Below are positions 5,151 to 59,865 of a DNA stretch of 64,000 nt, piece after piece. The position numbers and the translations under genes were made by a program. The first letter of the stretch is position 1, and each line of letters begins with the position of its first letter. The notes under the pieces are model-generated. The model had not been told where the DNA came from, ran no database searches, and saw only the letters and a program-made list of their open reading frames with translations. The DNA lies in assembly GCF_030814415.1 (NCBI RefSeq), contig NZ_JAUSVB010000001.1:124001-188000 (forward strand), read 5' to 3'. The stretch comes from Cellulomonas humilata (GTDB lineage Bacteria; Actinomycetota; Actinomycetes; Actinomycetales; Cellulomonadaceae).

Positions 5151-6032
5151 ATGCTCGCCAACTACCTGATCGGCCTGCGCGAAGGCCTCGAGGCCGCGCT
5201 GGTCGTCAGCATCCTCGTCGCCTACCTGGTCAAGACCGACCGTCGCGACCACCTGCCCGCGCTGTGGGCCGGCGTCGGCATCGCGATCGCGGTCTCGCTC
5301 GGGTTCGGCGCGCTGCTCACCTTCGGCCCCTCGGGGCTGTCGTTCGAGGCGCAGGAGGCCATCGGCGGGACGTTGTCGATCGTCGCGGTCGGCCTGGTCA
5401 CCTGGATGATCTTCTGGATGGCGCGGACGGCGCGGCACATGAAGTCCGACCTGCACCACAAGCTGGACGACGCGCTCAGCGCCGGCAAGAAGGCCGTCGT
5501 CGTCGTCGCGATGCTCGCCGTGGGGCGTGAGGGTCTGGAGACCGCGCTGTTCCTGTGGGCGAGCGCGCAGGCCACCAGCGGCACGGCCGTGAACGCGAGC
5601 CCGAACCTCGCCCCGCTGGTCGGTGCGGCCCTCGGCCTCGGCACGGCGGTGCTGTTCGGCTGGCTCATCTACCGGGGCGCGCTGCGCCTCAACATGCGCG
5701 TGTTCTTCGCCTGGACCGGCCTGTTCCTCGTGGTCATCGCCGCGGGCGTGCTCGCGTACGGGGTGCACGACCTGCAGGAGGCCGGGATCCTGCCCGGCCT
5801 GAACAACCTCGCGTTCGACGTCTCCGCGACGATCCCCCCGAGCAGCTGGTACGGCACCGTGCTCAAGGGCGTCTTCAACTTCTCGCCGGCCACGACGTGG
5901 CTCCAGCTGTTCGCCTGGACGGCCTACCTCGTGCCGACGATGTACTTCTTCATCCGCACCACGTGGGGCTCCGCGCCCGCGCGGCCGACGGCCCCCGCCG
6001 TCCAGCCTGCCGTCCGCGCCTCCGCCGCCTGA
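5151..6032 (+). CDS. efeU: EfeU / FTR1-family iron permease
   Basis: 293-residue membrane protein with about seven hydrophobic segments. It carries the two iron-binding motifs of the oxidase-dependent iron transporter family: REGLEA at about residues 10-15 and REGLET at about 126-131. It is the membrane permease of the tripartite EfeUOB system, which takes up ferrous or ferric iron. First gene of the efeUOB operon, directly behind an iron box. The C-terminus ends in an Ala/Pro-rich tail. Confidence 0.93.
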   Translation: MLANYLIGLREGLEAALVVSILVAYLVKTDRRDHLPALWAGVGIAIAVSLGFGALLTFGPSGLSFEAQEAIGGTLSIVAVGLVTWMIFWMARTARHMKSDLHHKLDDALSAGKKAVVVVAMLAVGREGLETALFLWASAQATSGTAVNASPNLAPLVGAALGLGTAVLFGWLIYRGALRLNMRVFFAWTGLFLVVIAAGVLAYGVHDLQEAGILPGLNNLAFDVSATIPPSSWYGTVLKGVFNFSPATTWLQLFAWTAYLVPTMYFFIRTTWGSAPARPTAPAVQPAVRASAA

Positions 6033-54663: not shown

Positions 54664-55655
54664 GGCCGTTCGAGCGCTCCTGTCACGGTGTCCCAGCCGC
54701 GCGTGATCCGCGCGGGTACGCCGTCGTCGAAGGCGCCGCCAGGAAAGGCTCCCACAAGTGTCTCGGCCGAGCCGGACGACTGCGAGCCGACCACCTGGAC
54801 GACCGTGCCGTCGGCCTGCCACACGACGTGCCACGGTTCGTACGAGAGCACGTACACCTGCCGCCCGCCGACCGTGCTGGTGGGGGCGGCGGCGAGCGCG
54901 CTCGTCTCGAGCCGCCCCTGCTGCTCCGTGACGACCAGCGACGTCCCGTCCGCGCCGGTCACGTCGACCTCGAGCACCCGGGAGTCGTCGCCGGACCAGC
55001 GCACCGCGGTCACGGTCCAGCCGGCGGGGAGCTCGGCCGGGAACGTCCAGGCGTGCGAGCGCAGCCACGCCACGGTCTGGTGGGAGGCGTCCGCCGACCC
55101 GTCGTCGCCGGGCCAGGGGCTGCTGTCGACCAGCCGGTCGGCGGCGGGGTCCGCGGTCGTCGCCTGTCCGAGCAGCCCGAGGTCCACGCCGGGGTGCACG
55201 GTGGGCACCACGTCGGGCCGCTCGCCCAGCACGAACAGCATCGCCGCCACCGCACCGAGACCCGCCATCGAGCCGGCGGCGATCCGGACGGACGAACGCC
55301 GGTGGCCGACGTCCCCGCGCAGCGAACCGTTCCCGCGCCAGCCGCGCGAGCCCAGGCCACCGCTGGCCACGCCGTACGAGGCCAGCTCGTCGCGGGACTG
55401 CCGGGCCGGGGGCGCGAAGGGGTCGCCGCCGAACGAGTCCGGAGTGCTCCCCGCGAGCGACAGCAGCCGCGCGGTCAGGTCAGGGTTCGGCGTGACCTCG
55501 TCGGCGGAGGCCAGCGCACGGCGGGCGGCGCGGGACGCGGCCAGCTCGGCCGAGCACTCGGGGCAGACCGCGACGTGCGCGAGGGCCTTCTCGGTGTCCG
55601 CCACCGAGAGCTGCCCGTCGACCAGCGCGCTGATCCGCGACCCGAGGTGGCTCAT
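54660..55655 (-). CDS. rseA: Anti-sigma factor RseA-like (zinc-binding, membrane)
   Basis: 331 residues. N-terminal zinc anti-sigma domain with H27, C31 and C34 (HVAVCPEC), a membrane helix near residues 120-140 ([20 protein letters not shown]) and a large outer domain. It should hold the neighbouring ECF sigma factor inactive until envelope or thiol stress. Start overlaps the sigE stop (ATGA). The outer domain is longer than that of M. tuberculosis RseA and may be a separate sensor. Confidence 0.87.
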
Positions 55656-56263
55656 CCGAGGACCGTCAGCGGAGAGACGTCGGAGTCGGAGGCCGCCGTC
55701 GGCGCACGGTGCTCGAGCGACACGCGCAGCCGCGCGCGGGCGCGGTGGATGCGGGACCGGACGGTGCCCAGCTTGATGCCGAGCGTCACCGCGATCTCCT
55801 CGTAGGACAGGCCCTCGATGTCGCACAGCACGACGGCCGCGCGGTACTCCGGGGGCAGCTGGTCGAGCGCGCGCTGGATGTCGAGGTCCAGGTTGCCGTG
55901 CTCGAAGGCACGCTCCGGTGCACCCAGCTGGTCACCGGACGCATAGCGCTCGGCGTCCTCCCCCATGGCGTCCATGCGGATGCGCTGACGCCGGCGGGCC
56001 TGGTCCAGGAACAGGTTGGTGGTGATGCGGTGAAGCCAGCCCTCGAACGTGCCGGGCGTGTAGGAGTGCAGCGAGCGGAACACGCGGACGAACGTCTCCT
56101 GCGTGAGGTCCTCGGCGTCGTGCTTGTTCCCCGTGAGGCGGTAGGCCAGCCGGTACACCCGCGCGGAGTGGTCGCGGACGATCTCTTCCCACGACGGAGC
56201 CTGCCAGGCGGCGGGCTGGGTGGGCTGGCTGGCCACAGGGCTGGTCTCCTCGGTGCGTGACAT
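55652..56263 (-). CDS. sigE: ECF sigma factor of the SigE type
   Basis: 203 residues. Region 2 ([26 protein letters not shown], in parts) and region 4 with helix-turn-helix [24 protein letters not shown] are complete. It directs transcription of an envelope-stress regulon. The ATG at 56263 follows an ECF-type promoter; a longer frame to 56377 runs through that promoter and is rejected. Operon with rseA and htrA; the divergent O-methyltransferase gene matches the mycobacterial arrangement. Confidence 0.92.
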
Positions 56264-56308
56264 CGTGCCCCAGTGTCCCAGGTCGACCTGTGAGCCTCGA
56301 ACGCTAGG

Positions 56309-56334
56309 AACGCCTGCAGCGGGCGAGAAGTTCC
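56309..56334 (-). promoter_or_regulatory. ECF-type promoter of sigE (GGAAC-N17-CGTT)
   Basis: On the minus strand GGAAC (56334-56330) and CGTT (56312-56309) are separated by 17 bases, the SigE-class promoter pattern, 46 bases upstream of the sigE ATG. This suggests autoregulation. Confidence 0.6.
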
Positions 56335-56400
56335 GCCTGTAGCGGACCGCGCGCGCCCCCGCACCCTCCGGGGGCACCCGACTACGCTGGCGGACGACCG

Positions 56401-57069
56401 TTGCACCACCACGTCGTCGCGCCCCGGGAGGCCACCATCTCCACCGACAAGGCCCAGAGCTGGGTCTACTGCGAGGAGTTCCTGCCGGAGGACGACATCC
56501 TGCTGCGCGCCCGTGAGCGCGCCGCGCAGCTGGGGTGCACCCCGGTGCTGCCGGGCGCGGGCGCCGCGCTGAGCGTGCTCGCGGCGGCCGTCGCGGCCCG
56601 CGCGGTGGTCGAGATCGGGACCGGGACCGGCGTGGGCTCGCTGTACCTGCTGCGCGGGATGCCGGCCGATGGCGTCCTGACCACGATCGACTTCGAGGTC
56701 GAGCACCAGCGTGCCGCCAAGGAGGCGTTCGTCGAGGAGGGCGTCAAGCCCACCCGTACCCGCACGATCTCCGGCCGCGCCCTGGACGTGGTGCCCCGGC
56801 TCACCGACGGCGGCTACGACCTAGTGTTCATCGACGCCGACAAGGAGAACTACCGCGGCTACGTCGAGCAGGCCGTGCGCCTGCTGCGCCCCGGCGGGGT
56901 GCTCGTGGTGGACAACGCCCTGTGGCACGACCGGGTCGCGGACCCCGCACGCCGCGACGAGACGACGACCACCATCCGGGAGGTCGGCCGCATCGTGCGC
57001 GCCGACGACCGGCTGCTCCCGTCCCTCCTTCCCGTGGGCGACGGACTCCTGGTGGCCGTCAAGCGGTAG
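56401..57069 (+). CDS. SAM-dependent O-methyltransferase (caffeoyl-CoA OMT-like)
   Basis: 222 residues. SAM-binding [28 protein letters not shown] and [13 protein letters not shown] are the diagnostic blocks of bacterial class I O-methyltransferases of the Rv1220c type. No ATG or GTG is available near the expected N-terminus; the TTG at 56401 with GGCGGA upstream is the only reasonable start, giving an odd N-terminal MHHHVV. Substrate unknown. Diverges from sigE. Confidence 0.85.
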
Positions 57070-57209
57070 CCGGTCGGGGCGCGGAGCACGCTGACCCGCT
57101 TGCAGTGCCGGAGCTCCACCCCGCGTCGCCCGTGTGACGCGCCCGTCCGCGTCCGCGCAGGTCACCGGCGCTGGTTGACGCGCCTCGTGACTACGTCACA
57201 GGAATTCGA

Positions 57210-57238
57210 TGACAACGCTATGTTCGTGGTGCTAAGTT
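57210..57238 (+). promoter_or_regulatory. Promoter candidate of the polyester hydrolase gene
   Basis: TGACAA (57210-57215) and TAAGTT (57233-57238) are 17 bases apart, placing the transcription start near 57244, inside the palindrome. The rest of 57070-57209 shows nothing recognisable. Confidence 0.45.
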
Positions 57239-57241
57239 GCG

Positions 57242-57259
57242 AAACCGACCGGTCGGTTT
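57242..57259 (+). promoter_or_regulatory. 18-bp perfect palindrome, TetR-type operator candidate
   Basis: AAACCGACCGGTCGGTTT is perfectly palindromic over 18 bases and overlaps the predicted transcription start of the polyester hydrolase gene. Such sites are typical of TetR-family repressors. No TetR gene is in the window. An orphan AAGGAGG (57266-57272) follows without a start codon at usable distance. Confidence 0.6.
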
Positions 57260-57338
57260 GTGTCGTAAGGAGGTCATCGCCCACCCATCGCCCCGAGAGT
57301 CACCGGTCGGCGGGGCACCACCGAGAGGACACAACGAC

Positions 57339-58223
57339 GTGACATCTCTGACCCAGTGGCGCCGCACGGTCGCCACGACCGCCGTGCTCAGCGCCACCCT
57401 CGTCGTCGGCGGCATCGCCGGCGTCGCCTCCCCAGCTGCAGGAGCAGACAACCCGTACCAGCGCGGCCCCGACCCGACGCGGTCCAGCATCCAGGCCGCC
57501 CGCGGGTCGTTCGCCGTCTCGCAGACCTCTGTCTCCCGCTACGGCGTCAGCGGCTTCGGCGGCGGCACCGTCTACTACCCGACCGACCAGTCCCAGGGCA
57601 CGTTCGGCGCGGTCGTCGTCGCCCCCGGCTACACCGCGCGGCAGTCCAGCATGGCGTGGCTCGGGCCGCGGATCGCGTCGCAGGGCTTCGTCGTGTTCAC
57701 CATCGACACGAACTCGGTCTACGACCAGCCGGCGTCCCGCGGGGACCAGCTGCTCGCGGCCGCCGACTACCTCACCCAGCGCAGCGCGGTGGCCGGCCGG
57801 ATCGACGCCACCCGCATCGCCGTCGTCGGCCACTCGATGGGCGGTGGCGGGACGCTCGAGGCCGCCAAGGACCGCCCGTCCCTCAAGGCGGCGATCCCGC
57901 TGACCCCGTGGAACGTGGACAAGACGTGGCCCGAGGTCACCACCCCGACCTTGGTCATCGGAGCCCAGAACGACTCCGTCGCGCCGGTCGCGTCGCACGC
58001 GAAGCCGTTCTACCAGACGCTCCCGTCGTCGACGCCGCGCACCTACCTCGAGCTGCGCGGAGCGAGCCACTTCGCGCCGAACAGCTCGAACACGACGATC
58101 GCCGAGAACTCGATCGCCTGGCTCAAGCGGTTCGTCGACAACGACACCCGCTACACGCAGTTCCTGTGCCCGACCCCGTCCGGCACCGCGTTGTCCGAGG
58201 CGGCCTCGAGCTGCCCGTTCTGA
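57339..58223 (+). CDS. Secreted polyester hydrolase, actinobacterial cutinase / PET hydrolase group
   Basis: 294 residues; signal peptide to about A36, mature protein [11 protein letters not shown] onward (about 258 residues). The sequence follows the Thermobifida cutinase/LCC pattern throughout: [55 protein letters not shown]. Catalytic triad S166, D212, H244; oxyanion and substrate residues Y98, M167, W191; the H220/F224 pair of ordinary cutinases rather than the Ser/Ile of Ideonella PETase; C277 and C292 form the C-terminal disulfide. It should hydrolyse cutin-like or synthetic polyesters outside the cell. GTG 57339 is preceded by GAGAGGAC. Activity on PET is inferred only. Confidence 0.9.
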
Positions 58224-58233
58224 CCGCCTGACC

Positions 58234-58272
58234 GGGCACCCCGCGTCGTCACCAGAGCGGTGCGGGGTGCCC
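58234..58272. terminator. Bidirectional terminator between hydrolase and pepA
   Basis: Arms GGGCACCCCGC (58234-58244) and GCGGGGTGCCC (58262-58272) are perfectly complementary around a 17-base loop and fill the gap between two convergent stop codons. Confidence 0.75.
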
Positions 58273-59865
58273 TCAGCGCAGGTCGTCGAGGTACCGCAGC
58301 AGGAGGCGGGCGCCGAAGCCCGTCGCACCCTCGGTGACCTCGTGCTTGTCCGACGTCGCACGGGCCGGGCCCGCGATGTCGAGATGGGCCCAGGTGCGCT
58401 TCCCGACGAAGTGCCGCAGGAACAGAGCAGCCGTGATCGAGCCGCCGCCGATGTGCTTGTCGACGGGCACGTGCCGCAGGTCCGCGACCTGCGAGGACAC
58501 GGCCTCCTCGTACTCCTCGACCAGCGGCATGTGCCACGCCAGCTCGCCCGACGCGTCGCCGGCGGCCAGGAGCGCGTCGGCCAGGTCGGCGTCACCGGAG
58601 TACAGGGCGGCGTACTGCTTGCCGAGCCCGAGCGAGGCCGCGCCGGTGAGCGTGGCGACGTCGATGAGCACGTCGGGGTGGAGGGTGGCGTCTGCCCAGG
58701 CCAGCGCGTCGGCCAGGACCAGGCGTCCTTCGGCGTCGGTGTTGGCGACCTCGACCGTGGTGCCGTCCCACATCGTCAGCACGTCACTCGGGCGGTACGA
58801 CGCTCCCCCGAAGTGGTTCTCCGCGAGCGGCAGCACGGCCGTGACCCGGTGCGCGACCCCGGCGGCGGCAGCACCGAGGACCGTGGCCAGCGCGACGGCG
58901 GCGCCGGTCATGTCGGTCTTCATGGGGACCATGGCCTCGCGAGGCTTGATCGAGATCCCGCCCGTGTCGAAGGTGATGCCCTTGCCGACGACGACGACGT
59001 GTCGGCCACCGGCGGTCGGCGGCGTCCAGGAGACGGTCACGAGGCGCGGCGACGAGGCGGAGCCGGCACCGACCGCGAGGATGCCCCCGAACCCCTCGGC
59101 CGTGAGTTCCCGGGTGCTCCGGACGACGACCTCGAGCCCGGCCTTGGTGGCCAGGCGCTTGGCCTGGTCCGCCAGCCAGGCGGGGGTCTTGGTGCTGGAC
59201 GGGGTGGTGGCCAGGTCCCGGACCAGCCACGTCGCGGTGGCGGCCGTGCGACCTTCGGAGACGGCCGCGGCGGATCGCATGCCGTCGCGCCCGAGCAGGA
59301 CGAGCTCGGCGGCCTCACGCGAGGGGCCGTCCGACGTCGAGGCGGTCGGCGGCACGTAGGCGGCGAGCAGGTAGCCCTCGGCGACGGCTCGCGCAGCTGT
59401 GGCAGCCGCCGAGTCGTCCTGGTGGGCCTCGGCGCCGAGCGTCGTGACCACCCGGCGCAGGCCGCGTGAGGAACGCGCGAGCGCCGCGCCGGCACGCCGC
59501 AGGTCCGCGGGCCGGCCCGCACCGACGCCGACGAGCACCAGCCGAGGCGGCAGTCCCGACCACGGCAGGGTGACCGACGAGCCGACCGGCCGGGGCAGCT
59601 GCAGGACGTAGATCTCGCCCGCCGCACCGGTCAGTCGCGCGCGATCGCCGATCTCGGCCAGGTCGACGCCGTACCGTGCCGCGGCCTCGGCCGTGCCCTG
59701 GAGCGGGCGCAGTGCATCGTCACCCGCGCGCGCCGGGGCCACGGGGACGGCGACCGCGTCGGTCGACCCGTCGGTGAGCAGCGTCGTCGTCGCGATGCTG
59801 CCACCGTCGACGGTCACGTCCGGGGGGACGCGACCGATCGACGATCTCGTGCTCGTGCGAGCCAT
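58273..59865 (-). CDS. pepA: Leucyl aminopeptidase (M17)
   Basis: 530 residues. Metal-binding and catalytic blocks VGKGITFDTGGISIK, MKTDMTGAA and NTDAEGRLVLADAL are intact, with the terminal GATGFGARLLL. It removes N-terminal amino acids from peptides in the cytoplasm. The N-terminal domain is divergent, as usual. Located two bases downstream of the DUF3117 gene on the same strand. Confidence 0.95.
   Translation of the reverse strand: MARTSTRSSIGRVPPDVTVDGGSIATTTLLTDGSTDAVAVPVAPARAGDDALRPLQGTAEAAARYGVDLAEIGDRARLTGAAGEIYVLQLPRPVGSSVTLPWSGLPPRLVLVGVGAGRPADLRRAGAALARSSRGLRRVVTTLGAEAHQDDSAAATAARAVAEGYLLAAYVPPTASTSDGPSREAAELVLLGRDGMRSAAAVSEGRTAATATWLVRDLATTPSSTKTPAWLADQAKRLATKAGLEVVVRSTRELTAEGFGGILAVGAGSASSPRLVTVSWTPPTAGGRHVVVVGKGITFDTGGISIKPREAMVPMKTDMTGAAVALATVLGAAAAGVAHRVTAVLPLAENHFGGASYRPSDVLTMWDGTTVEVANTDAEGRLVLADALAWADATLHPDVLIDVATLTGAASLGLGKQYAALYSGDADLADALLAAGDASGELAWHMPLVEEYEEAVSSQVADLRHVPVDKHIGGGSITAALFLRHFVGKRTWAHLDIAGPARATSDKHEVTEGATGFGARLLLRYLDDLR

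Follow-up and report, generated by a model that had tools for sequence, protein, structure and literature searches.

The natural role of PETase-family enzymes, and the way in which they are switched on, are poorly defined. For Streptomyces LipA, which belongs to a related family, overexpression of all three variants enhanced BHET degradation, and PET film was roughened at 25°C by only one of the three, according to the available part of that study (PMC11169514). In LCC, residue D238 belongs to a calcium site, as given in the accessible portion of PMC10577388. PfmR of T. thermophilus is a TetR repressor that binds TACCGACCGNTNGGTN, and its operon, as far as the available text describes it, comprises genes for TetR, acyl-CoA dehydrogenases, a 3-oxoacyl reductase, MaoC, an acyl-CoA ligase, a gluconate 5-dehydrogenase, and a phosphotransferase (PMC7022988). 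In Burkholderia cenocepacia, the negative control of paaA depends on a repeat, and PaaR, of the TetR type, is a repressor (PMC2770484, available sections). A review, in its accessible text, describes EMSA evidence of binding, with compound II of its scheme as the releasing agent, and it cites a title that names phenylacetyl-CoA as the effector of T. thermophilus PaaR (PMC9493321). A literature search by title and abstract start, with most subscription journals outside its coverage, returned no description of a TetR operator at the gene of a PETase or a bacterial cutinase; among the matches listed for Cellulomonas with PET hydrolase or cutinase, likewise by title or abstract start, there was no native Cellulomonas PETase.

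The window, that is, the whole stretch of DNA analyzed here, comprises 64,000 nucleotides of the Cellulomonas humilata genome (contig NZ_JAUSVB010000001.1, positions 124,001 to 188,000). An ORF of 294 codons on its forward strand (57339..58223) runs from a GTG at 57339 to a TGA at 58221-58223, and its product matches the Pfam family PF12740 (PETase) with 405.5 bits (cut-off, 28). The original prediction had called it a secreted PET hydrolase-like cutinase, and a secreted, cutinase-like type I enzyme of the PETase family is supported. The GTG start and the ribosome-binding-site-like GAGAGGAC (57323..57330, forward strand) are kept in all eight aligned orthologs. A signal peptide is predicted at residues 1 to 36 (57339..57446, forward strand), and by eye it has a WRR n-region, a hydrophobic core, and a cleavage point near AAGA/DNPY, so placed that the mature enzyme begins at about residue 37 (DNPYQRGP). 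The AlphaFold model has a mean pLDDT of 88.3, with low confidence at residues 1 to 35. In the alignment, the nucleophile is Ser166 of GHSMG (57834..57836), opposite TfCut2 S130, LCC S165, and IsPETase S160, the catalytic acid is Asp212 (57972..57974), and the catalytic base is His244 (58068..58070), all encoded on the forward strand and accompanied by the oxyanion Tyr and Met. By sequence and model, the mature protein is an alpha/beta hydrolase with an intact Ser-Asp-His triad and Tyr/Met oxyanion hole, and its chemistry would be that of its family. All of the residues named beforehand were found when the protein was aligned to TfCut2, LCC, and IsPETase (NPYQRGP at 38 to 44, Y98, S166, M167, W191, D212, H220, F224, H244, C277, and C292), and an alignment of 36 sequences, counting the one from the window, shows no variation at nine of the 10 single residues, Y98 being the exception.

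Type I enzymes are defined by His, Phe, and the lack of a second disulfide at IsPETase positions 159, 238, and 203/239. The window enzyme has H165, F245, and A209 at positions 159, 238, and 203. Judged by sequence and structure model, the product of 57339-58223 is a secreted type I PETase-family polyester hydrolase. The best Foldseek match of the model is 1JFR (rmsd, 0.8; TMt, 0.97), followed by an ancestral PETase reconstruction and then PET40, and the best 10 solved PETases match it over their full length with rmsd values of about 0.8 to 1.2. The score against the NCBIfam BHET hydrolase equivalog NF051441 is 494.5 bits, below the cut-off of 520. A comparison with the well-known PET hydrolases had been proposed as a check, and in it the residues align and the enzyme shows 60% identity to TfCut2 (153/256 aligned columns), 59% to LCC (150/253), and 51% to IsPETase (129/252). 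TfCut2 and LCC share with it H165-S166-M167, W191, H220, F224, F245, and the C277-C292 cysteine pair, but the His that follows the conserved Trp in both is N192 here, and the acidic residue of the calcium-stabilized cutinases of this type (TfCut2 D204, LCC D238) is absent, with R240 in its place. IsPETase, a type II enzyme, shares the triad, the oxyanion hole, and R101/Q102/S103 (IsPETase R90/Q91/S92) but differs at H165 (W159), H220 (S214), F224 (I218), F245 (S238), and A209 (C203), the last indicating that the second disulfide is missing; it also has three extra residues in the loop after N251 (IsPETase N244) that the window enzyme lacks. The enzyme itself is an unremarkable, well-formed representative of a known family, and the variant part is its wiring.

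The gene lies between an O-methyltransferase-like gene (OMT; 56401..57069, forward strand) and a convergent leucyl aminopeptidase-like gene (pepA; 58273..59865, reverse strand), each present in 78 of 81 Cellulomonas genomes, in a conserved block that also holds a sigE-like ECF sigma factor gene (55652..56377, reverse strand); all three were named by reading. OMT and pepA are found together on one contig in 76 of the 81 genomes, in every case convergent. The gap between them does not exceed 214 bp in 61 and contains the PETase gene in eight, in keeping with the earlier suggestion of a lone accessory insertion in a conserved block. In five further genomes it measures 360 to 1,017 bp (ORFs are listed in G047 and G039), and in two it is about 1.6 kb, with an MFS transporter gene by profile in G037 and a long ORF in G038. 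Elsewhere, the gap (57070-58272 in the window) holds an epoxide hydrolase gene beside the PETase gene in G024 and G043 and a methyltransferase gene beside it in G014 (loci of the inserts, L152, L149, L150, and L154). The gap looks like a tolerated insertion site. In G014, the methyltransferase gene has on either side a copy of about 130 bp from the 3' end of pepA (89% identity; L154:4247-4379 and 5303-5431), a duplication that suggests how that insert arrived.

Strong PETase homologs (E ≤ 4.6e-99) occur in 19 of the 81 genomes, that of the window included. Eight of them lie between OMT and pepA; the loci of the other 11, some of them short, contain neither neighbor. In L147 and L148, where the PETase copy is at another locus, MFS transporter and TetR genes lie no more than some kilobases away, and in L147 an MMPL-like gene (by reading) adjoins the TetR gene. 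Segments found by tblastn show 96% identity in Cellulomonas sp. Leaf334 and 79% in Root930, labels that suggest isolation from leaf and root. In a collection of plasmids, six records matched, none above 66.3% identity. A protein tree (99 rows, quick method, in which the long-branch placement of LCC and IsPETase is unreliable and was not used) grouped the eight at-site PETases with 99% SH-aLRT. In a tree of 30 of the 78 OMT genes, the eight at-site genomes and G040 form one clade (92/87), and G040 belongs to a subgroup of six, the other five being PETase carriers (98/98); the genome search gave no PETase hit in G040. One gain and one loss is the simplest reading: the PETase gene probably entered the gap between OMT and pepA a single time, in a Cellulomonas clade of nine species, and disappeared again from G040.

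Upstream of the gene, a −35 element (ATGACA, 57209..57214) and an extended −10 element (TGC TAAGTT, 57230..57238) are predicted on the forward strand by consensus match only. An 18-bp perfect palindrome, AAACCGACCGGTCGGTTT (57242..57259, no strand), begins 3 nt past the predicted −10 and overlaps the predicted transcription start; it is a predicted TetR-family operator and an exact match to the ACCGACCGGTCGGT-type pattern of PfmR and PaaR operators. TGACA, TGCTA, and the palindrome are common to all eight at-site promoters, the palindrome being perfect in seven and one base off in its 16-bp core in G014. The exact 16-mer has seven sites in the 81 Cellulomonas genomes, all at the PETase promoter, and the exact 18-mer has the same seven in 221 genomes of the family; a control search with the reversed sequence gave no matches. 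In the clade that carries the PETase gene at another locus, G004 has the exact 14-bp core and G015 has it with one mismatch. G002, G017, and G034 have a degenerate site (3 mismatches of 14) at the aligned place, recognized by its position after the fact, and in G034 the promoter scan itself named another 3-mismatch site. The promoter scan gave no clear operator for the other six Cellulomonas homologs, including G032, whose best site (5 mismatches of 16) was not counted. The same was true of the 77 non-Cellulomonas loci scanned, two of them with less than 120 nt upstream, where the best sites (3 of 14 mismatches) are near chance. In two species, G024 and G043, the PETase gene and the divergent epoxide hydrolase gene have the operator between them, and the epoxide hydrolase gene probably starts about 97 nt away. 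An epoxide hydrolase would be in keeping with cutin, whose components include epoxy fatty acids.

A 2-mismatch form of the site, AACCGACCGGACGGTA, occurs in all eight at-site PETase genomes and was not found in G040. The C. humilata (G000) copy is found upstream of LivG, within a distant gene cluster; two further 2-mismatch sites of this genome (C1:1195426 and C4:84543) were dropped as lying inside unrelated ORFs, and the recurrence of similar copies in some relatives is assumed to reflect coding sequence. One strand of the cluster reads SDR2-TetR-quinone oxidoreductase-SDR1-site-LivG-LivF-LivH-(LivM)-LivK (LivF, LivH, and LivM named by reading), and the other carries a phosphotransferase (APH), an acyl-CoA dehydrogenase, and an AMP-ligase. 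The candidate repressor is its TetR protein (191 aa; G000:C2:98624-99196), which reaches the cut-offs for TetR_N (67.2 bits) and TetR_C_24 (77.4 bits) and falls below those of the named equivalogs FadR (NF053878; 58.8 of 200 bits) and KstR (NF033703; 28 of 280 bits). Its model (pLDDT, 92.9) has KstR2, DarR, and PfmR as top structural matches. By sequence, its closest solved relative is PDB 3dcf, a TetR/AcrR regulator of T. fusca, the source of TfCut2. TetR, the ligase, LivG, the binding protein, and the acyl-CoA dehydrogenase score below every curated NCBIfam cut-off shown, and both SDRs pass just a generic "glucose 1-dehydrogenase" subfamily. No profile names the acid substrate of the cluster, the ligase and the binding protein matching generic relatives.

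The cluster region was examined in 11 of the 20 genomes with this TetR, and 10 remained after the decayed copy of G040 was left out. At a threshold of at most 4 mismatches of 16, chosen after the sites had been inspected, a site lies within 180 nt upstream of SDR2, which heads the SDR-TetR operon, in 10/10 clusters and upstream of LivG in 10/10. Of 300 shuffled versions of each stretch, no more than 4 equaled these sites, and a score this high is reached by 34 of 1,001 windows in these loci, a count that includes the SDR2 and LivG sites. A third site in the C. humilata cluster (3 mismatches) falls 42 nt inside the longest APH ORF and is assumed to be upstream of APH, with a later true start. 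G040 keeps TetR and an SDR2 stub, and the quinone oxidoreductase, SDR1, Liv genes, and ligase are absent within the 19 kb examined. This decayed copy (L209; G040 C3:372000-391000), with its intact TetR gene and truncated SDR2, is adjoined by a FabG-like gene (by profile) and thiolase-like remnants (by reading).

By comparison of the genomes, the perfect palindrome, an operator-like site at the predicted start of PETase transcription, has weaker forms at fixed places in the distant cluster. The genes there encode a TetR similar to PfmR and KstR2, an ABC importer of the Liv type together with its binding protein, enzymes for acyl-CoA ligation and acyl-CoA dehydrogenation, and further dehydrogenases. 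The cluster TetR would repress the enzyme gene, the cluster, and its own gene. Outside the cell, polyester hydrolysis would yield aromatic acids or fatty acids of the hydroxy or epoxy type; taken up by the importer and activated by the ligase, these would become acyl-CoA, and the acyl-CoA would free the repressor. The natural substrate would most likely be cutin or suberin, with PET and BHET hydrolysis as a side activity. We consider it fairly probable that the enzyme is a polyester hydrolase for acyl-CoA-induced scavenging, with the cluster TetR as its repressor and cutin or suberin as its likely substrate; repressor, inducer, and substrate are inferred from sequence. The fuller proposal, a self-inducing plant-polyester regulon in which one acyl-CoA-sensing TetR governs PETase, the epoxide hydrolase of two species, acid import, CoA activation, oxidation, and itself, is offered tentatively, at somewhat less than even chances.

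By the site alone, other TetR proteins of the genome could also be its binder. The enzyme could be a broad-scope PETase-family esterase or lipase whose palindrome is bound by another TetR protein or other regulator unrelated to the cluster, the match reflecting a common ACCGAC-type half-site. This motif class is common to several TetR regulators, PaaR and PfmR among them, and relatives without the operator exist: five PETase-bearing Cellulomonas have neither operator nor TetR, and G032 has TetR and no clear operator, which indicates that the enzyme exists elsewhere free of this control. TetR occurs in 20 of the 81 genomes. It is present in 13/13 genomes with a site at PETase (10/10 when the three degenerate sites are excluded) against one of six PETase genomes without it (G032) and six of 62 genomes without a strong PETase hit (Fisher P = 0.0005 and 1.6e-7, ancestry ignored). 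The last six indicate that the cluster has a role of its own. When ancestry is considered on the 30-genome OMT tree, four independent pairs remain, in which TetR agrees in two or three and opposes in none; with four pairs, significance is out of reach, as this alternative would allow. However, the site positions are conserved in all 10 clusters examined, TetR accompanies the site in 13/13, and in G040 the enzyme is missing, as is most of the cluster from its usual locus. Chance is hard to uphold against these three, and regulation from outside the cluster appears unlikely to us, at about one chance in a handful.

We regard as improbable the reading of an efficient PET depolymerase kept owing to exposure to plastics. 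The identities to TfCut2 and LCC and the presence of all named PET-binding residues speak for it, and PET activity is plausible from the sequence. However, the gene was probably acquired at the root of a clade of nine species, and protein identity falls as low as 79%, which suggests an age beyond that of plastics. The profile search of the C. humilata genome gave no match to the ring-hydroxylating oxygenase alpha-subunit family (the control matched in 4 of 14), so a terephthalate-using lifestyle is not supported; for the tannase/MHETase family, neither this genome nor the control gave a match. By analogy with LipA, of which just one of three variants acted on PET film at 25°C (PMC11169514, available part), such activity may well prove measurable, though weak. 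A dienelactone hydrolase or other non-polyester hydrolase, the outcome against which the original prediction was staked, was rejected as scarcely credible: a weak DLH match (26.3 bits) stands against 405.5 bits for PF12740, the full-length fit to the best 10 solved PETases, and the C-terminal disulfide cysteines.

As an enzyme alone, the protein is one more homolog of a known family, and its regulation is the new part. The operator and the cluster sharing it, both absent from the original prediction, are the best clue to the natural function. With the operator, a candidate repressor, and the genes for uptake and activation that would share its control all identified by name, the inducer and the natural substrate become directly testable; if the fuller proposal of a self-inducing plant-polyester regulon is true, the natural substrate of the PETase lineage could be read from the ligands of the importer and repressor.

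Among polyester hydrolases, the Streptomyces exfoliatus lipase 1JFR is about 69% identical to the enzyme (rmsd, 0.8), and it and the Streptomyces LipA BHETases share fold, triad, actinobacterial source, and secretion with it (PMC11169514, available part); they fall in another clade of the protein tree, and, unlike the Cellulomonas gene, the Streptomyces loci in the promoter scan have no clear operator. Among regulators, a text search of the literature for the 14-bp core identified the operator of B. cenocepacia PaaR as the identical sequence, as given in the accessible parts of both sources (PMC2770484 and PMC9493321); PaaR governs phenylacetate genes, whereas the Cellulomonas cluster contains importer and acyl-CoA genes. 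The same core fits the PfmR consensus TACCGACCGNTNGGTN (PMC7022988, available text). The gene table rows available for the PfmR operon contain no importer and no polyester hydrolase, but its parts list resembles the Cellulomonas cluster, and PfmR (PDB 3VPR) shares the fold of the Cellulomonas TetR (TM, 0.87) at about 24% identity.
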